A stretch of 39,693 bases of DNA from Thiomicrorhabdus marina. GTDB taxonomy: Bacteria; Pseudomonadota; Gammaproteobacteria; Thiomicrospirales; Thiomicrospiraceae. Below are positions 1,150 to 25,429 of this stretch, piece after piece. How positions within the stretch are numbered: position 1 is the first letter of the stretch; every line of letters begins with the position of its first letter. The position numbers and the translations under genes are program-made. The DNA is taken from assembly GCF_017571465.1 (NCBI RefSeq), contig NZ_JAGETV010000023.1:1-39693 (forward strand), written 5' to 3'. A model generated the notes under the pieces. The model was not told the origin of the DNA. It was given only the letters and a program-made list of their open reading frames with translations, and did no database searches.

Positions 1150-3348
1150 ATGAGACAGTTTTTAGGGCTTAAATCACAATCAAACCTACAGCGAGCGGTG
1201 CTTGGCGTTATGCTCGGCGGCGCACTGTTTTTCGGTGTGACACCGATTTCACAGGTGCAGGCGGCACCGGAAGAGATTTCCGAACAGAGTTTCGGTAATT
1301 TCCAGAATGTCGAAATCAGCACGGTGATTGAAGCGGTTGCCAAACTGTCCGGCCATAATTTCGTGATTGATCCGCGGGTAAAAGGCCGAGTTACCTTGAT
1401 TGCGCCGGAAGGCATGAAACCGGACGCGCTGTATGAAACTTTATTGTCGGTATTAAGCGTACACGGTTATGTCGCGGTGGATGCCGACGGCGTTACTAAA
1501 ATCGTCCCGGCCAATATGGCCAAAGACCAACTGCCGTACCGCAATTATCGCGAGACGCCGGAAGATTGGGTGACCGAAGTTCTGAATGTCAATAATGTTG
1601 AAGCGACTAAGCTGGTGGCGATTCTGCGGCCATTGGTGGCGCGTGAAGGGCATCTGGTCGGTCTGGCGGAAAGCAATCGTTTGATTATTACCGATACGGT
1701 TGCCAATATTCGCCGCATCAAAGACGTTTTACGCAAAGTCGATATCAATAATTACGGCCAGTTTGAGGTGATTCAAATTGAGCATGCACCAGCCGGCGAT
1801 TTAGCGAAAACCCTGAAAGGGTTGATTCCGAAAAACCAGGGCGGTACCAATGTCACCATCAGTTTTGATGAACGCTCTAATCGCATTATCCTGACCGGCG
1901 ATGAACAGAAACGCATGATGATGCGTGCTTTATTGGCCGAGCTGGATGTGCCGACGGCTTCCGACGGACGTGTACAAGTTATTTATCTACGTTATGCCAA
2001 AGCGGAAGATTTGGTTCCTGTGTTGCAGAAAATCGCTACTAATCAATCCTTAGCAAAATCCAATATTACCGAATCCAGTTCTACATCAACTGCTCCTGAG
2101 CCTGCGATAGCTGCCGAAACGAAAGCGACGAAAGAGGCAAACGAGCCGATCAGTAATGCCGCAAATAACTTGATGCTTAATGACAGTAAGCAGTTGAAAG
2201 AACAGGTTAGCATTGAAGCCGACGAACGCATGAATGCTTTAATAATTAGTGCGCCGACGCAAATTGTTACTGCTCTGAAAGAGGTCATAAGGCAGTTGGA
2301 TATTCGCCGTGCTCAGGTTTTGATTGAAGCAATTTTTGTCGAAGTCTCCGAAGACCGTGCCGCTAATTTGGGTGTTGAGTGGGGCGTACTTGGTGAACAA
2401 GGTGCCGGATTGATTAACTTTAGCGGTACGCTTCCTGCATTAATCAGTGGTGGCGCTGCAGCAGCGTCAACGGCATTGGGGACAGGAATGAACTTCGCTG
2501 CTGGTAACTACAGTAGCGATTCAAATACCGGTTGGGCAGCGTTTATTAAAGCGCTTAACAGTGATTCTGCATCTAATATTCTGGCAACGCCTTCGTTGTT
2601 AACGCTGGATAATGAAGAAGCGGAAATTCTGGTCGGGCGTGAAGTGCCTTTCCAAACCGGTAGCTATACTTCAACCACAACCAGTGTGACCAATCCGTTC
2701 AGTACCATTGAACGTAAAAATGTTGGTTTAAGCTTGAAAGTTAAACCGCAGATTAACGAAGGGGACGAGATTTATCTGGAAATCGATCAAGAAGTTTCCG
2801 ACGTCATTCCAAAGGGTGAAGCGGTCGATATTCAGACCACCAAGCGCCAAATCAAAACCCGCGTGATTGTTGGTGACGGAAATGTCGTCGTGCTTGGCGG
2901 TTTGATTGACGAAAAAGAAACCCAAGTGGATTCGAAAGTTCCAGGGCTTGGTGATCTTCCGGGAATTGGCGGTCTGTTCCGTTCAACCGATAGCAGTCGT
3001 CAAAAGACCAATTTAATGGTTTTCCTGCGTCCGGTTATTGTGCGCGACAATGCTAAGAGCGATTTTTATAGCCGTCAGAAATACAGCATGATTTATGACG
3101 AGCAACAACGCATTTTAGATTTACCGCAAAAATCTTGGATTAAGCCGGGATTACGTCCGAAATTGCCGGAGTATGAGCAGTGGCGTGAAAATAAACCGCA
3201 GCCAACGCCTCCAGCTTCAGCTCCGCTTGCTAAGCCGCAAGATGAAAAATCGGCAGAGAAAGTAATCGAAGAAACACCGAAAGCTGAAAAAGTAGAAGAG
3301 AGTGCTTCTTGGGTTAATGATAGTTACGATGACTTCTATGACTTTTAA
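1150..3348 (+). CDS. gspD: Type II secretion outer-membrane secretin GspD
   Basis: GspD forms the outer-membrane channel of the T2SS. The 732-residue protein has a cleavable Sec signal (about 1-38, ending SQVQA), N0 and N1-N3 periplasmic domains (about 45-390), and a C-terminal secretin domain carrying VPFQTGSYTS and the conserved VPGLGDLPGIGGLF near 600-615. Two low-complexity stretches stand out: an Ala/Thr/Glu-rich insertion in N3 (about residues 298-345) and, after the barrel, a Pro/Lys/Glu-rich tail from about 685 that ends acidic and aromatic (SYDDFYDF). ATG 1150 follows AAAAGG at a spacing of 8. No gspS pilotin is seen nearby. Confidence 0.97.
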   Translation: MRQFLGLKSQSNLQRAVLGVMLGGALFFGVTPISQVQAAPEEISEQSFGNFQNVEISTVIEAVAKLSGHNFVIDPRVKGRVTLIAPEGMKPDALYETLLSVLSVHGYVAVDADGVTKIVPANMAKDQLPYRNYRETPEDWVTEVLNVNNVEATKLVAILRPLVAREGHLVGLAESNRLIITDTVANIRRIKDVLRKVDINNYGQFEVIQIEHAPAGDLAKTLKGLIPKNQGGTNVTISFDERSNRIILTGDEQKRMMMRALLAELDVPTASDGRVQVIYLRYAKAEDLVPVLQKIATNQSLAKSNITESSSTSTAPEPAIAAETKATKEANEPISNAANNLMLNDSKQLKEQVSIEADERMNALIISAPTQIVTALKEVIRQLDIRRAQVLIEAIFVEVSEDRAANLGVEWGVLGEQGAGLINFSGTLPALISGGAAAASTALGTGMNFAAGNYSSDSNTGWAAFIKALNSDSASNILATPSLLTLDNEEAEILVGREVPFQTGSYTSTTTSVTNPFSTIERKNVGLSLKVKPQINEGDEIYLEIDQEVSDVIPKGEAVDIQTTKRQIKTRVIVGDGNVVVLGGLIDEKETQVDSKVPGLGDLPGIGGLFRSTDSSRQKTNLMVFLRPVIVRDNAKSDFYSRQKYSMIYDEQQRILDLPQKSWIKPGLRPKLPEYEQWRENKPQPTPPASAPLAKPQDEKSAEKVIEETPKAEKVEESASWVNDSYDDFYDF

Positions 3349-4801
3349 TCTGCCTTTTAGCTTTGCGCGCAAGAACCAATTAGTTCTGGAATTTGATAAC
3401 GGCTTGCAGGCATTTTTCACAGAAGAAACGCCTGTAGCTGCTATTCAAGACGTGCAGGCGCAACTGTTTATCCTGAATCCGCAACAGCAGATTGAGTGGC
3501 AACAGATTTCTGCCGAACAACTCGCGCAGAAAGTGCAGGTTGCTTATGCCGACAGCGGCAGTAATTCTCTGGATGTTGCGCACGCAATTGAAACCGATGA
3601 TTTGGCGTCGGTGGTCGCGGAAATCGGTGAGCCGGAAGATTTGCTTGATAGCGCCGATGATGCGCCGATTATCAAACTGTTGAATGCGGTGCTGACCGAA
3701 GCGATTCGCGCCGAGGCTTCCGATGTGCATATTGAACCTTATGAAAACCAACTACGGGTACGTTTCCGAGTCGACGGCGTTTTGAAAACCGTACTAAGCC
3801 CTAAACCGGCTTTAGCTTCGATGCTGGTGTCGCGTATTAAGGTTATGGCGCGTCTCGACATTGCCGAAAAACGTATTCCGCAAGACGGCCGGATTGCCTT
3901 GAAGCTAGGCGGCCGTGCAGTGGACTTGCGTGTATCGACCTTGCCGTCTAGTTTTGGTGAGCGTGTGGTATTGCGTCTGCTTGATAAAGGTGCTGAACGC
4001 CTGACTTTGAAAGATTTGGGGATGCCGGCGGAAATGGAAGCGGGTGTTGCTAAGGCCTTATCGAAGGCGCACGGTATTTTCTTAGTTACCGGGCCGACCG
4101 GTTCCGGTAAAACAACCACTCTGTATGCCGGTTTGATGCGTTTGAACGACACACAGCGCAATATCATGACCATTGAAGATCCGGTCGAATATAACATTGA
4201 CGGTATTAACCAGACACAAGTTAACAGTAAAGCCGATTTGACCTTTGCTCGCGGTTTACGCGCTTTGTTACGTCAAGATCCAGATGTGGTGATGATTGGT
4301 GAGATTCGTGATCCGGAAACCGCACAGATTGCGGTTCAGGCATCTCTAACCGGCCACTTAGTGTTATCGACGTTACACACCAATACCGCGGTCGGCGCGA
4401 TTACTCGTTTGCGCGATATGGGTACCGAAGCATTTTTATTGGCATCCAGCTTGAATGGCGTATTGGCGCAACGTCTGGTGCGTAAACTCTGTCCGCATTG
4501 TAAGCAAGCGCACCACGCCGATGAGGCGGAGTGCAATCTGCTTGGCGTGCAGACTGCAACGATCTATAACGCCAAAGGGTGTGAGGAATGTCAGCATACC
4601 GGTTATTCAGGTCGTATGGGATTATATGAGCTGCTGTTAGTTGACGAAAAAGTGCGTTCAATGATTCATTCGCACCAATCGGAAGCGGATATCGATGCTT
4701 ATCTAAGACAGTCGGCACCGTCGTTAAATCAGAGCGGTTTCCAAGCGGTTTTGGATGGCAAGACCAGTTTGGATGAAGTCTTGCGCGTGACGCAAAACTA
4801 G
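3338..4801 (+). CDS. gspE: Type II secretion ATPase GspE
   Basis: GspE is the cytoplasmic hexameric ATPase that powers pseudopilus assembly. Visible motifs are Walker A GPTGSGKTTT at about 252-261, the Walker B/Asp-box region with MIGEIRDPETAQ at about 319-330, the His-box region LVLSTLHTN, and a four-cysteine zinc module (CPHC from 385, then CEEC) typical of GspE. The N-terminus LPFSFARKN is the usual GspE opening. I place the start at ATG 3338, which gives 487 residues and an 11-base overlap with gspD. ATG 3329, ATG 3317 or GTG 3302 in the same frame are possible; none has a convincing ribosome binding site, so translation may be coupled to gspD. Confidence 0.95.
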   Translation: MTFNLPFSFARKNQLVLEFDNGLQAFFTEETPVAAIQDVQAQLFILNPQQQIEWQQISAEQLAQKVQVAYADSGSNSLDVAHAIETDDLASVVAEIGEPEDLLDSADDAPIIKLLNAVLTEAIRAEASDVHIEPYENQLRVRFRVDGVLKTVLSPKPALASMLVSRIKVMARLDIAEKRIPQDGRIALKLGGRAVDLRVSTLPSSFGERVVLRLLDKGAERLTLKDLGMPAEMEAGVAKALSKAHGIFLVTGPTGSGKTTTLYAGLMRLNDTQRNIMTIEDPVEYNIDGINQTQVNSKADLTFARGLRALLRQDPDVVMIGEIRDPETAQIAVQASLTGHLVLSTLHTNTAVGAITRLRDMGTEAFLLASSLNGVLAQRLVRKLCPHCKQAHHADEAECNLLGVQTATIYNAKGCEECQHTGYSGRMGLYELLLVDEKVRSMIHSHQSEADIDAYLRQSAPSLNQSGFQAVLDGKTSLDEVLRVTQN

Positions 4802-10814: not shown

Positions 10815-11642
10815 ATGCCTATGCAAATCAAGAAACCCCGCCAATATTTGTTACTATTCGTCAGCGCATTATTGGTGTTGCTGATTTCGCTATTGAGTCA
10901 TTTGCAGATCGCTTTTATTGCTGATAAATGGATTGATAAAAAATCGGTTTCGCCTTTATTGTTTACTGAGTGGCAAGGTGGTTTAGGTAGTGGTAGCACG
11001 AATGTAGCACTACAGAGCAAGCAAGGAAACAGTCCGCTAGGCAGAGTTTACTGGCGTAATGATTTGTTGAATTGGTTGTTATTACAGCCGACGATGCACT
11101 CTTCAGTGCGCTCTACCGACAGTCGCTTGCAAATCGAAGGTAGTTACTCGATTCTTAATCAGTTACTGGTAATCAGCGTTCGTGATTCGGCGTTGAGTAG
11201 TGCGGATTTAAAAGCATTCTGGCAACTAAACCGCGAATATGGCCGCTGGCTAAATGGCATCGAAGGTAAGTTGCAGCAGTTGAATTTGCAGGTCGATTGG
11301 GATCAAACACAGCAGTGGTTAGCCGCTCTCACTGGTTCGGCGCAATTGGTTGGTTTGCAATTTATGGGTGAAACCTTTCCGGCGATTCAACTACAGCTTT
11401 CGCAACAGCAACAGAATATTGTCCTGAAAATACAGGCGCAAGAGAACTGGAAGCTGCAAGGCAGCATCACTTTACAACCGGTATTTTCCGACACAAGACA
11501 ACTTATTGCCCTGCAGTATGATGGCGAGATTGAAGTGCAGGCAGAAAGTGCCGAAGCCTTGCCAAATTGGGCAAGTTTAATGCGTGCTCAAGGTGATAAC
11601 GCTGCAATAACCAAAATTAACGGGCAGTTGAATTTACATTAA
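10815..11642 (+). CDS. gspN: Type II secretion protein GspN
   Basis: This 275-residue protein has one N-terminal membrane segment (about 11-33) and a periplasmic domain rich in beta strands and Gln. Length, topology and its place directly after gspM fit GspN, an accessory T2SS component found only in some operons. No strong motif confirms it, so the name rests on architecture and context. Two in-frame ATGs (10815 and 10821) are possible starts. It follows gspM after 41 bases in which I see nothing else. Confidence 0.78.
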   Translation: MPMQIKKPRQYLLLFVSALLVLLISLLSHLQIAFIADKWIDKKSVSPLLFTEWQGGLGSGSTNVALQSKQGNSPLGRVYWRNDLLNWLLLQPTMHSSVRSTDSRLQIEGSYSILNQLLVISVRDSALSSADLKAFWQLNREYGRWLNGIEGKLQQLNLQVDWDQTQQWLAALTGSAQLVGLQFMGETFPAIQLQLSQQQQNIVLKIQAQENWKLQGSITLQPVFSDTRQLIALQYDGEIEVQAESAEALPNWASLMRAQGDNAAITKINGQLNLH

Positions 11643-11700: not shown

Positions 11701-13464
11701 ATGAACAAGCTTCTTATTACTTCAATGGTTTTATCTTTTAGCCTTGCCCTAACTGCTTGCGGCGGTGGGGGAGGAAGTGAAGCAACGCCTGCGCCTGTTC
11801 CAACCATTTTACCGGATGTCGAAATTTCCAGTTTTGATGATCCATTAATCGGCTATCAATGGTATTTGCAAAGTATCAAAGCAGTCAGTAATGGCGACTA
11901 TGTTCGTGATGGTAACGGCAATTTGATTACCGGCGATACCGTTCGCGTGGCGGTGATTGATACCGGTTTGGAACTCGGGCACGAAGATATAACGGAAAAT
12001 GCTACTGTTGGTGCTTCCTACAATTTTTTTGATGACAGTAATCAGCCGACTCCAGATACCTCTTTAGGTGATCACGGAACTGGCGTCTCAGGAATTGTGG
12101 CGGCGCGTGGCGGTAATACTCTTGGCGGTGTCGGAATTGCGCCAAGTGCCGAATTACGAGCTTTTAAATTACTTAATTCGGAAGGTGGCACTTCAATTTC
12201 GATTAGCGACCAACTGGCGGCAATTGGCTACGATCCATCCAATAATTATCCTGATTTAGTGGCCTCTGATGTTGATGTATTTAACCTAAGTTATGGTTTT
12301 GCTGTTACTTATGATCCTTCACTGGATAGTAATCTGTTTAATTACTATTCACAGTTCATTGATGGTTTGCAAATCGGTACTGAAAACCTTCGTGATGGAA
12401 AAGGGGCTTTGTATATCAAGGCAGCCGGCAATGAGTTTGCTGATATTGATGGTAATACAGGTACTTATGAATGTGTCGAAGCGAGTGACAACGGTGTGAC
12501 CTGTTTTAATGTTAATTTTGAACGAGACCAAACAACGCCCTACCTAATCCCTGTTGCAGCCTATGATGATAGCGAGAAAAAAGCCAGTTTTTCCAACACC
12601 GGCTCAGCGCTTTGGATTAGTGCTCCCGGCGTTGGTATTGTCACAATTGACCAGTCCGGTTGCGACCAAGGTTATAGCCGGGAAACACAGAATGGTATTC
12701 GAACCGATACTTTGATTGCCGACGAAGATGCAAACTGTAACTACTTCAGTTATTTTGGCGGAACTTCTGCTGCGACGCCTATTGTCAGCGGCGTTATTAG
12801 TTTGATATTAGAGGCGAATCCGCAATTAACATGGCGTGATATCAAACACATCTTAGCAACAACAGCGCGTCAAATTGATGTTGGACTGACTGCTAAATAC
12901 CTTGCCAATAGCGCAATCAAAATCGAACAGGGATGGATTGAAAATAACGCCGGTTATCGCTTCTCCAACTATTACGGTTTTGGCGCGGTTGATGCGCAGG
13001 CTGCGGTGAATATGGCAACGGATAATTATAATTCACTCTCCGCTATGCAGACGATTGAGCAAACTGGCAATGTGACTGATAGCGGTAATATTCCTGATAA
13101 TAATGCTGCTGGGATTACCGAAACCATGACGGTTAACCGAGGTGTTAACCTGGTACTGGAAAGTGTCAGCTTAAAGGTTTCGATGTCTGAGCAGCTAGGA
13201 GCGGATGGTTTTGATTTTAGTGATTATGTGATCACCCTGGTTTCTCCAAATGGTACCGAAAGCTTAGTGATGACGCCGTTTACCGGCTTTGCTAAAAATA
13301 CCGATGTGACTGATTACCCGATGATTACTCACGCTTTTTACGGCGAAACCCTAAACGGTGATTGGAAATTGAAAATTCAGGATGTTGATTCGCAAACTGA
13401 TTTGGCCGGTGAAGGTGAATTAGTCGATTGGTCACTGACTTTTTACGGACATGAGGAGCAGTAA
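11701..13464 (+). CDS. Subtilisin/kexin-like lipoprotein protease with P domain (ASP-like)
   Basis: This is a predicted surface-exposed or secreted serine endopeptidase of family S8. The signal peptide ends in a lipobox, LTAC with Cys20, followed by five glycines. The catalytic triad is visible: Asp87 in VAVIDTG, His125 in DHGTG and Ser356 in GGTSAATP, with oxyanion Asn244 in AAGNE. A proprotein-convertase P domain fills about 476-584 (VITLVSPNGTES, LNGDWKLKIQD). The catalytic domain begins by about residue 40, so there is no room for an N-terminal propeptide. The next gene seems to supply one in trans, as in Aeromonas ASP/ORF2. Its position just after gspN suggests a T2SS cargo, possibly lipidated like pullulanase; that part is inference. 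Confidence 0.92.
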   Translation: MNKLLITSMVLSFSLALTACGGGGGSEATPAPVPTILPDVEISSFDDPLIGYQWYLQSIKAVSNGDYVRDGNGNLITGDTVRVAVIDTGLELGHEDITENATVGASYNFFDDSNQPTPDTSLGDHGTGVSGIVAARGGNTLGGVGIAPSAELRAFKLLNSEGGTSISISDQLAAIGYDPSNNYPDLVASDVDVFNLSYGFAVTYDPSLDSNLFNYYSQFIDGLQIGTENLRDGKGALYIKAAGNEFADIDGNTGTYECVEASDNGVTCFNVNFERDQTTPYLIPVAAYDDSEKKASFSNTGSALWISAPGVGIVTIDQSGCDQGYSRETQNGIRTDTLIADEDANCNYFSYFGGTSAATPIVSGVISLILEANPQLTWRDIKHILATTARQIDVGLTAKYLANSAIKIEQGWIENNAGYRFSNYYGFGAVDAQAAVNMATDNYNSLSAMQTIEQTGNVTDSGNIPDNNAAGITETMTVNRGVNLVLESVSLKVSMSEQLGADGFDFSDYVITLVSPNGTESLVMTPFTGFAKNTDVTDYPMITHAFYGETLNGDWKLKIQDVDSQTDLAGEGELVDWSLTFYGHEEQ

Positions 13465-14036
13465 TGAAATTGTTTTTTAAAGGCTTTATTCAAGCTGCAG
13501 CCACCAGTTCGCTATTATTCGCCAGTTCGGCGCAAGCCTATCTATTGCCGTGTCAGTTGGTGACGCAGATGGCTGGTAGCAAAGTCTATGAAGCAAAACT
13601 GCAACGTATTGCCAGTATGACCGCACCGCAGGATATGCCGAGCGAATTGAATCTGGAGTTATTAGAGCGCCACGGCGGTTGGTATATCTATTACACACCA
13701 ATTTCGTGGTTTGAGCGGCAAACCTGCGGCCCGCAGATAAAGACCATTGAAGACAAACAGTTTCAGTTTATGCCGGTGTTATTGAATAAGATGACCGGTA
13801 TGAACGCGGTGCTAACCGGCACTTTTATTCTAAAAACCTATCGTCCTGAGCATCTTGAGGAAGTGATTAAGCGCTACGGCTTTAAGATGGTGACGCGTTT
13901 GCCGAAACCGAATACGGCAATTATCGACGTTAAACCGATTACCTCGTACGACGATATGATTGAAGAATTGGATAAAGACCGCGATGTCGATTTAGTTGCA
14001 CCGATTATGAGCGAGCCGCGTTTTAAGCCGCGCTAG
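13464..14036 (+). CDS. Exported propeptide-like chaperone/inhibitor of the adjacent protease (ORF2-like)
   Basis: This 190-residue protein has a Sec signal (about 1-25, ending SSAQA) and no lipobox. Residues 119-190 read as a subtilase propeptide (inhibitor I9-like) fold: strand GTFILKTY (119-126), helix EHLEEVIKRYG (129-139), strands across LPKPNTAIIDV (146-156), helix YDDMIEELDKD (162-172) and strand VDLVAPIM (175-182), then a basic tail EPRFKPR at the C-terminus. In ASP/ORF2 of Aeromonas sobria a separate downstream gene encodes the external chaperone that folds and blocks a P-domain subtilase lacking a propeptide. Here the start ATG overlaps the protease stop (TAATG) after GAGGAG, so the two are translationally coupled. 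Function is inferred from fold and context. Confidence 0.75.
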   Translation: MKLFFKGFIQAAATSSLLFASSAQAYLLPCQLVTQMAGSKVYEAKLQRIASMTAPQDMPSELNLELLERHGGWYIYYTPISWFERQTCGPQIKTIEDKQFQFMPVLLNKMTGMNAVLTGTFILKTYRPEHLEEVIKRYGFKMVTRLPKPNTAIIDVKPITSYDDMIEELDKDRDVDLVAPIMSEPRFKPR

Positions 14037-14056
14037 AGGTCTGATTTTTTCCAATA

Positions 14057-14094
14057 AAAAAGGGTTGGCAGTCATTAGATTGCCAACCCTTTTT
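14057..14094. terminator. Bidirectional rho-independent terminator
   Basis: A perfect 14-base stem runs from AAAAAGGGTTGGCA (14057-14070) to TGCCAACCCTTTTT (14081-14094) with a 10-base loop. The A and T tracts allow it to work in both directions. It lies between the convergent protease/chaperone unit (+) and the thioredoxin-like gene (-). Confidence 0.93.
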
Positions 14095-14111: not shown

Positions 14112-14678
14112 TTACTGCGGTTGATAATCGACTTTGCTCTCTTCAACCATTTTGTAGATATCGACGCGTTTATCATTACCAAGGTTTTTTAGTGCTTGGT
14201 TTAGCGCTTTTTCCAGATTGCCAGGATAGAATTCTTCCAAAGTCAGGCCGATAATCGGGTCAGCGATTTGATTGCCTTTGCTGTCGAAAATTAGGGTTGT
14301 CGGTGCTACGATAACGCCCATTTTCGGGCCTAAGGTTTTCATTTCGATTTCTGTACCATCGAAATTTTTCATCATCCAATGCGATTTATCCAAAACCAGT
14401 TGGCTGAAGTGACCATAGTCCTCCAAGTCAGTGGTTTGCAACAGCGGATAAAGGATATTCTGTTCTAACTTTTTGCAGTAGTTACACCAAGTCGCGGTTG
14501 CGAAAATGACGACAGGTACATTGTTTTTGGCAGCGATTTCACCGGCTTTTTGCAAATCAACCGCTAGAGGTAAAACATCGCCGGCATCGGCTTGAACATT
14601 GACGCTCAGACTACTTAAGCCAAGCGCCAAACCGGCAATAAAGGTTTTAAAAGGGGATAAGGTTGTCGGCCATTGCAT
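14112..14678 (-). CDS. Periplasmic thioredoxin-fold protein
   Basis: A thioredoxin-like exported protein. It has a signal peptide (about 1-30, ending NVQA), a redox motif WCNYC (Cys65 and Cys68) and a cis-Pro region VAPTTLIFD. The residues between the cysteines (Asn-Tyr) differ from classical thioredoxin and are nearer to SoxW/DsbD-gamma-like or thioredoxin_7-type periplasmic proteins. GAGGAG lies six bases ahead of ATG 14678, and the TTG at 14693 would place that site inside the gene, so I use 14678 (188 residues). It is the last gene of the minus-strand run. The redox partner is unknown. Confidence 0.85.
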   Translation of the reverse strand: MQWPTTLSPFKTFIAGLALGLSSLSVNVQADAGDVLPLAVDLQKAGEIAAKNNVPVVIFATATWCNYCKKLEQNILYPLLQTTDLEDYGHFSQLVLDKSHWMMKNFDGTEIEMKTLGPKMGVIVAPTTLIFDSKGNQIADPIIGLTLEEFYPGNLEKALNQALKNLGNDKRVDIYKMVEESKVDYQPQ

Positions 14679-14710
14679 AATTGTTCTCCTCAACTAAGTT
14701 ACCGGCGCAA

Positions 14711-18812: not shown

Positions 18813-20132
18813 CTACAAAATGTATTGCGACAGGTCTTGGTCAACCGACAATTCACCTAGACGCTCTTCAACCATCGCCGCATTGATTTCGATACGTGCG
18901 CCGCGCATATCGGATGCTTCAAAAGAGATATCTTCCAACAGACGTTCCAAAACGGTGTGGAGGCGACGTGCCCCGATGTTTTCGGTATTTTCATTGACTT
19001 GGAAGGCAATTTCCGCCAAACGCTGAATGCCGCTTTCGACGAATTCTAGTTCCACGCCTTCGGTTGCCAATAGCGCTTTTGCTTGTGTAGTCAGCGCCGC
19101 TTTCGGCTCGGTCAGGATACGCACGAAATCATCCACGCTTAGGGATTTCATTTCAACACGAATCGGCAGACGGCCTTGCAGTTCTGGAATCAAATCAGAA
19201 GGTTTCGCCAAGTGGAAAGCTCCGGAAGCGATAAACAGAATGTGGTCGGTTTTAATCATGCCGTATTTGGTCGATACCGAGCTACCTTCGATAAGCGGAA
19301 GCAAGTCACGCTGTACGCCTTCGCGCGACACCGAACCGCTGGAGTTGTCTTGGTTTTTAGCGACCTTGTCGATTTCGTCAATAAAGACGATACCGTTGTT
19401 TTCGACATTCTCAATCGCTTGCGCCTTGATTTGTTCTTCGTTTACCAGGCCGGCCGCTTCTTCGTCAATCAGTGCTTTCATCGCCTGTTTAATTGGCATT
19501 TTGCGTTTTTCTTTTTTGCCTTTACCGAAACCTTCAAACAGACCCTGTAGCTGCTGGGTCATCTCTTCCATACCCGGAGCGCCCATGATTTCTACTTGCG
19601 CCGGCATTGCGCTTAGATCAACTTCAATCTCTTTATTGTCCAAATCGCCTTCACGCAGTCGTTTACGGAATTTCTGACGTGTGTCAGCCATATTGTTATA
19701 GCTGTCTTCTTCGCGGCCGCGTGCCGGTGGCAATAGAATATCTAAAATACGCTCTTCGGCTTTGTCTTCCGCTTGGCGTTGAACATCCTGCATTGCCAAT
19801 TCACGCTGCATTTTTACTGCGGTTTCCGAAAGGTCACGGATAATGGAGTCAACATCGCGACCGACATAACCGACTTCGGTGAACTTGGTCGCTTCGATTT
19901 TCAAGAAAGGGGCATTAGTCAGTTTTGCCAGACGACGTGCGATTTCGGTTTTACCAACCCCGGTCGGTCCAATCATAAGAATGTTTTTAGGGGTGACTTC
20001 CGGCTTTAATTCATCCGATAACTGACTACGACGCCAGCGATTACGTAACGCAATCGCCACTGCGCGTTTTGCATCCGCTTGTCCAACAATGTGGGCATCT
20101 AGACTGTGAACAATCTCTTTAGGCGTCATCAT
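18813..20132 (-). CDS. hslU: HslUV protease ATPase subunit HslU
   Basis: HslU (ClpY) is the hexameric AAA+ unfoldase that feeds proteins to the HslV peptidase. Seen are the N-terminal MTPKEIV and IVGQADAK, Walker A GPTGVGKT (55-62), Walker B VFIDEID (249-255), an inserted I domain (about 110-240) and the conserved C-terminal DLSQYIL that docks into HslV. The start is ATG 20132 (439 residues), eight bases after AAGGAT; the frame extends to 20150 but lacks support there. Its usual operon partner hslV is not next to it but at 22985 on the other strand. Confidence 0.98.
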
Positions 20133-20174
20133 CTGTGTAAATCCTTGCAATCTTTATTTTATTGAATGGTTTTT

Positions 20175-22858: not shown

Positions 22859-22984
22859 ATTCTCCGCCAATGGCTTGATTCGTTTATTCTGCTAATTTCC
22901 TTTAGAATAGGCGCAGTTTTTACAGTAAAGACGCAAAAAATAATAATGACAACAACACAACAAAATACAGAAAAGGGAGAGCAG

Positions 22985-23527
22985 ATGTCCTTCAGAGGTA
23001 CTACGATTTTATGCGCTAAACGCGAAGGCGAAATGGTAATCGGCGGTGACGGTCAGGTGACTTTAGGTCATGTCGTAATGAAGGGCAATGCGCGTAAGGT
23101 TCGCCGTCTGTATAACGGTAAAGTACTGGCGGGGTTTGCCGGCGCAACCGCCGATGCTTTCACGCTATTCGAGCGTTTTGAAGCGCGTCTGCAAACGCAT
23201 AACGGTCAGCTAATGCGAGCTGCGGTGGAAATGGCGAAAGACTGGCGAACCGACCGTGCGTTACGTAAGCTGGAAGCGATGATGTTGGTTGCCGACCAAG
23301 ATAATATGTTGCTGATTTCCGGTACCGGTGATGTTATTGAGCCGCAAGACGACTTTATCGCCATTGGTTCTGGCGGCAACTATGCTTATTCAGCCGCGGC
23401 AGCACTGATGGCGAACACCGATTTAAGCGCGCGCGATGTAGTTGAAAAATCTCTAACCATCGCCGGTGATCTTTGTATTTATACCAACCATAATCTAACC
23501 ATCGAAAGCTTGAAAGCGGACGATTAA
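22985..23527 (+). CDS. hslV: HslUV protease catalytic subunit HslV (with short propeptide)
   Basis: HslV (ClpQ) is the N-terminal threonine peptidase of the HslUV complex. AGGGAG ahead of ATG 22985 sets the start and gives [13 protein letters not shown], so the catalytic Thr is residue 6 and five residues must be removed. Many relatives, including Escherichia coli, begin directly MTT. The body is canonical: [25 protein letters not shown], and [14 protein letters not shown] near the end. An in-frame ATG at 22946 lacks a ribosome binding site. The gene is separated from hslU by the xerC-DUF484-dapF block. Confidence 0.96.
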
Positions 23528-24258: not shown

Positions 24259-24310
24259 CGCTAGGATTGCGGCATATTTTTTTATGCGCATTAGCTATGA
24301 GGTTTTAACG

Positions 24311-25429
24311 ATGCAATTTTCGAAAGTGGTTCTAGGTTCGGCACTTGCTGCCGCTGTTCTATCTGGTTGTCAGGTTGTTGATCCAGATTCTAAAAAAGTG
24401 ATTAAGAGCAATGACATCACGGTAGTCGATCCGGATAGCAAAGAAGTGATTGTTGGTAGCAAGAAAGCCATCAAGCAGATCTTTGAAGTAGACCACGATG
24501 GTCGTATGTACCAGTTTTATGATTTCGCGACTTATCAGTCCTTCTTGGATGTGGGTGAAACCGCTTACCGTTTGACGCGTATCGGTGGTGGTCCAAAGGG
24601 TGAAACCCTAGTATTTGGTCTAGCGAAAGCAGATAAGAAGAAAGGTGCTAAAACGCCTGCGGCAATGCTTTGGGATGGCAAGGTAGAAGCGAGTAAAGAT
24701 TTCTACGGTGAGATTCGTAAGCACGGCCGAATCTATGTATTCAACAATAAGGCAGATATGGATGCGGTGCGCCAAGTGGGCGAACCTTCTTACATGTTTA
24801 CCGAAATTGGTGGTGGTCCGAAAGGTGAAACGGTTGTTTATGTGCTAAACAAGAGCAATAAGAAAAAACGTCCGGATGCGCTAATCGCTAAGTTCAAAAC
24901 ACTTAATCCAGTCGTACAAATGGCAGTAGCAGAGCCGGTTGCTGAAGCAGCACCAGAAGTTGCAGAGCCTGTGATTGTTAAAACCACGGAAATTTTTGAT
25001 GTAATTCATGATGGTCGCTACTACAGCTTCTACGACTATGCGACTTACCAGTCATTCCTAAGCGTAGGTGAAACCGCTTATCGTTTGACTCGTATCGGCG
25101 GTGGTCCAAAGGGTGAAACTTTGGTATTCGGTCTAGCGAAAGCAGATAAGAAGAAAGGTGACAATACGCCGGCAGCATTGTTGTGGGACGGTAAATCAGA
25201 AGTAGAAGGTAATTTCTACGCTGAACTAAGAAAGCATGGTCGTATCTATGTGTTTAACAAGAAAGCTGATTTAGATGCTGTTCGCCAAGTAGGTGAGCCA
25301 TCTTATATGTATACGCAAATCGGTGCCGGTGCGAACGGCGAAACTTTGGTGTTTGTGCTAAACAAAGACAATAAAAAGAAAAAGCCGGTTGAACTAATGG
25401 AAAAATACCAAGCGGTTAACGCTAAGTAA
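24311..25429 (+). CDS. Lipoprotein with fourfold internal repeat, family not recognised
   Basis: I do not recognise this family. The 372-residue precursor has a lipobox LSGC (Cys20). The start is ATG 24311 after GAGG; the frame opens at 24284. It consists of two long copies (from Ile57 and from Ile228, offset 171 residues with no gaps, roughly three quarters identical). Each long copy holds two related halves, for example at His62 and His138, with the pattern HxGRxYxF then VGExxY then IGGGPKGET then VFxL. They are joined by an Ala/Glu/Val-rich linker. The halves vaguely recall YHS-like domains but lack cysteines. It is flanked by terminators on both sides, so it is probably monocistronic. Confidence 0.85.
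   Translation: MQFSKVVLGSALAAAVLSGCQVVDPDSKKVIKSNDITVVDPDSKEVIVGSKKAIKQIFEVDHDGRMYQFYDFATYQSFLDVGETAYRLTRIGGGPKGETLVFGLAKADKKKGAKTPAAMLWDGKVEASKDFYGEIRKHGRIYVFNNKADMDAVRQVGEPSYMFTEIGGGPKGETVVYVLNKSNKKKRPDALIAKFKTLNPVVQMAVAEPVAEAAPEVAEPVIVKTTEIFDVIHDGRYYSFYDYATYQSFLSVGETAYRLTRIGGGPKGETLVFGLAKADKKKGDNTPAALLWDGKSEVEGNFYAELRKHGRIYVFNKKADLDAVRQVGEPSYMYTQIGAGANGETLVFVLNKDNKKKKPVELMEKYQAVNAK
24479..25406 (+). repeat. Tandem direct repeat within the lipoprotein gene (513-base period)
   Basis: DNA from about 24479 recurs at 24992 with a constant offset of 513 bases. Conservation is highest around 24554-24645 and 25067-25158, where whole stretches such as GTCTAGCGAAAGCAGATAAG are identical. This points to a fairly recent internal duplication, or to gene conversion between the halves. 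Confidence 0.85.

Follow-up and report, generated by a model that had tools for sequence, protein, structure and literature searches.

A P-domain subtilase predicted to be a lipoprotein and its separately encoded propeptide-like partner behind a type II secretion operon of Thiomicrorhabdus marina

In the proprotein convertases of the kexin/furin type, which combine a catalytic domain with a P-domain, the prodomain is made in cis and cleaved off, and the prodomain of fervidolysin (PF22148) is likewise part of the protease chain. A 2022 survey singled out the P-domain subtilase ASP of Aeromonas sobria as the exception among subtilases, whose propeptides otherwise act in cis (PMC9549277). ASP has no cis propeptide and requires ORF2, a chaperone encoded directly downstream, to mature (PMC5638518; structures of the ASP/ORF2 system, 3wqb and 2mk4; ORF2 family, PF18492), asp and orf2 forming one operon (PMC2613230). 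PSI-BLAST had revealed such operons in species of Vibrio, Shewanella, Chromobacterium, and Pseudoalteromonas (PMC5638518). A stand-alone propeptide-like protein, SUB1-ProM, is also encoded near subtilase genes in Plasmodium, where it is an extra inhibitor of SUB1, which has a propeptide of its own (PMC6993865). Two sorting motifs have been described for lipoproteins of the type II secretion system (T2SS) in Acinetobacter, one being GGG at P2'-P4', and these lipoproteins need GspN for surface localization (PMC12802150). Here, we describe a subtilase gene and an overlapping partner gene at positions 11701-14036 of a 39,693-nucleotide stretch of DNA from Thiomicrorhabdus marina, of a sulfur-oxidizing genus, and compare them with these systems. 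The stretch (the window) is contig C15 in a genome of 2.83 Mb.

The protease gene (11701-13464, + strand) encodes a protein of 587 amino acids that was identified as a P-domain subtilase by Pfam, with Peptidase_S8 at residues 78-428 (148 bits) and P_proprotein (PF01483, E 2.7e-12) at residues 508-581 (13222-13443), and by PDB matches, of which the best solved relatives were structures of ASP (3hjr, E 7.1e-55; 3wqb, E 1.7e-54), followed by kexin (E 1.3e-31) and furin. The catalytic triad and the oxyanion Asn were located by motif in addition to the P-domain, the codons of Asp87, His125, Asn244, and Ser356 being at 11959-11961, 12073-12075, 12430-12432, and 12766-12768, respectively. A previous sequence-only reading of this DNA had held that the enzyme is a predicted lipoprotein that runs from its lipobox almost straight into the catalytic domain, and both points were borne out. 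The lipobox LTAC (residues 17-20; 11749-11760), which ends a signal peptide judged by eye, predicts acylation of Cys20, followed by GGGGGS, and the catalytic domain begins at about residue 46 (DDPLIGYQW). Thus, only a linker of ~25 residues (11761-11835) occupies the usual propeptide place, leaving no room for a propeptide between Cys20 and the catalytic domain; for scale, the prosegment of subtilisin BPN' has 77 residues according to a PDB title. In relatives of the protease (20 adjoining a partner gene and a separate one in genome G061), CGGG follows the lipobox in 16 of 21, in addition to the window protease, and the remaining five comprise two having a lipobox with other sequence, rich in S, G, or D, further on (L118 and L121), two cut by contig ends (L040 and L120), and one with no lipobox match (L106). 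The linker varies widely in length, and an Ig/cadherin-like stretch between the lipobox and the catalytic domain was recognized by eye in L032, L043, L044, and L045. The source genome has four S8 places, and another of its subtilases (contig C21) carries a propeptide-like stretch in cis, as judged by eye, so that both designs seem to coexist in one genome. The previous label of toxin-like is unsupported for the window protease: no sign of host action was present in the data seen, which included no test aimed at host action, and the closest named relatives are Thiomicrorhabdus, Thiomicrospira, and metagenome-assembled genomes of Thiotrichales.

The partner gene (13464-14036, + strand; 190 amino acids) overlaps the protease gene by one base within TAATG, with TAA at 13462-13464 and ATG at 13464-13466, in agreement with the coordinates and frames read earlier. 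Pfam, the predicted structure, and fold matches characterize its product as a candidate external propeptide/chaperone of the ORF2 type, exported and of two domains. A signal peptide of 25 residues, judged by eye to end in AQA before Tyr (13464-13538), precedes an N-terminal domain (residues 26-113; 13539-13802) modeled as a helix plus five strands, in which Cys30 and Cys88 show no variation across the 23 aligned rows from the window's own genus. When the structure of the partner was predicted alone (predicted local distance difference test score, pLDDT, of 93.6), the strand-helix-strand-strand-helix-strand pattern earlier assigned to residues 119-190 appeared at residues 114-183 (13803-14012) as an I9-like domain (in the numbering of the full-length protein, strand 114-125, helix 128-138, strand 141-145, strand 151-155, helix 162-170, and strand 175-183). 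The basic C-terminal tail previously noted, E-PRFKPR (14013-14033), is flexible in the model, with a mean pLDDT of 60 for the last residue block; from this low pLDDT, its fixed length beside the protease as described below, and analogy with the QPK end of ORF2, it is predicted to enter the cleft of the active site and to place Arg190 at S1. The best PDB match of the model in two comparisons was ORF2 itself (3wqb_B), and the next structural match by VIA was the prodomain of the convertase PC1/3. In Pfam, PF22148 matched residues 127-180 just above the cut-off (22.8 versus 21 bits), and PF18492 (ORF_2_N) gave no match in the window partner. PF18492 was below the cut-off in the family members L107, L118, and L119 and absent in L115, L117, L120, and L121, and no direct sequence link to solved ORF2 was obtained by phmmer with the window partner or the L118 partner or with the profiles A1 and A4. 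When 369 genomes of the class were screened for PF18492, no match was obtained, and the screen is uninformative, as the control genomes gave none either. The partner had no match in a plasmid collection, and the first contig scan with the protease alone found no relative.

Taken together, the protease nearest to ASP, its lack of a cis propeptide, the separate downstream gene, and the ORF2 fold support the earlier reading of the pair as being of the ASP/ORF2 type, in which the partner is a propeptide-type fold ending in a basic tail (-K-P-R here and -Q-P-K in ORF2; PMC5638518). There are differences as well. The partner has a larger N-terminal domain with two Cys residues, it is too distant in sequence for phmmer, and tail-less orphan copies of it occur in this order. 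The protease is a predicted lipoprotein with a CGGGGGS lipobox region behind a T2SS operon, unlike ASP, which is not known to be a lipoprotein. In having a lipobox followed by GGG at P2'-P4' and an adjoining gspN-like gene, it resembles the GspN-dependent surface lipoproteins InvL and pullulanase, although its export is a prediction and no subtilase is seen among the lipoproteins named in the available portion of that report (PMC12802150).

To place the pair in its order, 62 genomes of one family and seven genera were searched. The partner was present in 36 of them, in a total of 39 copies with two each in G042, G043, and G058. The protease profile matched 25 genomes at 1e-10, and the protease was of the window type (best E below 1e-90) in 22 and of a distant type in three (G018, G023, and G025); at one locus of G025 (L183, contig C251), two distant-type proteases lie in tandem with one partner gene each. 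The partner was found in all 22 genomes with the window-type protease and in 14 genomes without it. Assembly gaps are unlikely to account for the missing proteases in 10 of these 14, which are assembled in one or two contigs, the contig numbers of the others being 100 (G028), 6 (G040), 70 (G045), and 240 (G057). G042 and G043 each carry a tail-less orphan (L112 and L113) and a strongly diverged protease-paired copy (L120 and L121), the L121 pair being located behind a T2SS and L120 being cut by a contig end. In the second pair copy of G058 (L119, contig C129), the protease is split into separate open pieces and the partner gene is intact. In G061, the protease (L182) is ~10 kb from gspD and a tail-bearing partner (L107) is near ubiB on the same contig, 1.6 Mb away (or 1.0 Mb in the opposite direction, should this contig of 2.65 Mb be circular), so that the partner would act in trans there. 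GspD was found in 22 of 22 protease genomes compared with 23 of the 40 others (Fisher p 1.9e-4, uncorrected for descent).

The end of the partner was found to be related to the presence of the protease. In each of the 22 partners whose gene directly follows a protease gene (including that in pieces at L119 and those cut by contig ends at L120 and L040), exactly six residues follow a conserved Glu and end in x-x-[FYH]-x-x-R. The other 17 partners have no protease next to them, and 15 of these do not match the motif, 13 being in protease-less genomes and two being the orphan copies in G042 and G043. The pattern used, E[PQK].[FYH]..R, was set post hoc from the alignment, and a looser version would wrongly include L037. 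The tails of these 15 range from 1 to 11 residues, eight ending in R or K at other spacing and one (L038) having six residues after Glu with Asn at the end. The motif is kept without an adjacent protease in G061, where the protease is elsewhere on the contig, and in G045, where no protease was found. As a background, 27 of 298 gene copies from the neighborhood encode a protein ending in Arg; these non-independent copies represent 18 gene types. On a partner tree made with the tail columns excluded, adjacency requires five changes and the tail six, and in four independent pairs that differ in adjacency on well-supported branches the tail agrees in three or four and opposes in none, the numbers being too small for significance (median p 0.25). 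When a protease anywhere in the genome was used instead of adjacency, some pairings contained one opposite pair. A tail of fixed length with the protease and its drift without are as predicted by docking in the active site and, at the level of sequence comparison, the pattern fits a tail acting there.

Two further observations on the C-terminus are given for completeness. The Arg end in 16 of 16 members of set A4 is by construction, as the loci were chosen from listed C-terminal octets; those left out were L167, L168, L192, L193, L197, L198, L199, L206, L211, L213, and L218, with other endings, several K/R-ending partners of other types, and L230 and L250, in which the start motif was not found. 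A covariation at S1, examined in other taxa between the C-terminal residue of the partner and the acidity of the protease at the position of Glu274 in the window, matched to furin D306, was not clean and was dropped as evidence, acidic positions occurring with partners ending in H, Q, N, M, or E and Ser/Gly/Asn positions with K or R.

On the + strand, the T2SS operon is followed after 58 bases by the protease gene, the overlapping partner gene, and a strong hairpin, and the earlier placement of the pair directly behind that operon was thus confirmed. In the operon, gspD and gspE (1150-4801, + strand) were verified by Pfam (Secretin and T2SSE), the other names being assigned from gene order only. 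Its final gene (10815-11642, + strand) is a probable gspN by its position after the gsp genes and by PF01203 (E 8.8e-4; 19.8 bits, under the 29.6 cut-off), and an orthologue occupies the same place in relatives. The terminator-like hairpin that would close the unit (14056-14094; minimum free energy -27.1 kcal/mol, z -7.6) is not listed by a pattern-based terminator scan. An exported thioredoxin-like protein is encoded convergently with the partner (14112-14693, - strand), and its gene adjoins that of the partner in 10 of 11 mapped own-genus loci, including all eight orphans.

The explanation that we consider probable, with good confidence, is that a kexin/ASP-like protease and its propeptide are made from the bicistronic tail of the T2SS operon as separate exported proteins, for folding in trans, silencing, and surface export. 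It is founded directly on the gene layout, the missing cis propeptide, the predicted ORF2-like fold, the conservation of the pair, and the tail length that tracks the protease, from which we infer folding, inhibition, S1 docking, export by the T2SS and GspN, and release. The partner would fold by itself, and its I9-like domain could then template the folding of the lipoprotein protease in the periplasm. Like a propeptide after cleavage, the tail of fixed length would stay in the cleft of the active site, its C-terminal Arg occupying the S1 pocket, and would keep the enzyme silent, this Arg replacing the C-terminal Lys of ORF2 near the catalytic serine if the analogy with ASP holds (PMC5638518). 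The T2SS may then pass the acylated protease (Cys-GGGGGS), complexed or silenced, to the outer surface, its lipid anchor probably being dealt with by GspN, and there the partner would be lost or degraded and the enzyme freed and active.

The same kind of fold plus tail would also suit a standing periplasmic inhibitor that is dispensable for folding and guards the cell against leakage of the protease, like SUB1-ProM or fungal POIA1. The persistence of orphan partners, the appearance of POIA1 among the fold matches of a second partner family, and the documented stand-alone inhibitor of Plasmodium (PMC6993865) are consistent with this. However, the window protease is without a propeptide of its own and its nearest relative, ASP, requires ORF2 to mature (PMC5638518), and we therefore regard a role restricted to inhibition as improbable.

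The orphans bear on a different alternative. In tail-less orphans, the ratio of nonsynonymous to synonymous substitution rates (dN/dS) was 0.08-0.21 in six of seven pairs, the seventh being saturated, and in protease-paired copies it was 0.05-0.16 in five of seven, two being saturated; the pairs were hand-picked and some share a sequence. Judged from these ratios, the tail-less orphans are under purifying selection, and in all eight orphans of the window's own genus the position next to ubiB and the thioredoxin-like gene is retained. Such persistence implies that the rest of the partner may be useful for something else, e.g., for the inhibition of a different subtilase or for a further client in the envelope, which suggests a second role beyond the protease; the partner as a mere folding aid of the adjacent protease is thus an incomplete account. 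It could even be supposed that the main job of the partner is independent of the protease, e.g., chaperoning or inhibiting a different envelope protein by means of the two-Cys N-terminal domain, and that the protease was recruited to it, as the constrained orphans, their constant place, and the coexistence of orphan and paired copies in G042 and G043 might indicate. This is very improbable, given the partner in every one of the 22 protease genomes, the tail register tied to protease presence, and a closest fold that is a protease chaperone. The partner as a chance open reading frame is rejected by its conservation and dN/dS.

Returning to the external propeptide that folds and silences the protease in trans, we tentatively suggest a wider version, which falls somewhat short of an even chance: the partner may be a bifunctional envelope protein, of which a detachable tail silences one surface protease and erodes on loss of the protease, the remainder retaining an older role that does not involve the protease, and propeptides in trans may be common for lipoprotein P-domain subtilases, with the second, diverged partner family (ending in ..PNWWxExxxR) located downstream of such proteases in other Proteobacteria.

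Elsewhere in the window, hslU (18813-20150, - strand; TIGR00390) and an hslV-like proteasome-subunit gene (22946-23527, + strand) are on opposite strands with ~2.8 kb between them, and a predicted lipoprotein of 381 amino acids (24284-25429, + strand) shows an apparent duplication of a block of ~150 residues, with no Pfam match at 1e-5.

Among the matches listed in the open-licence literature, searched by titles and abstract starts and with subscription papers mostly outside its coverage, there was no such pair in Thiomicrorhabdus, no T2SS lipoprotein subtilase of this kind, and no tail-less orphan chaperone. The recurrence of the layout in diverse Proteobacteria suggests that propeptides in trans are a regular way of handling a surface-anchored protease en route through the T2SS, and the protease described here is a subtilase candidate for a substrate of the newly described GspN lipoprotein route. 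Furthermore, the order provides a natural experiment, in which several lineages without the protease keep the chaperone, mostly with an altered tail. These orphan lineages separate the job of the tail, the silencing of the protease, from that of the rest of the partner, and both become testable.
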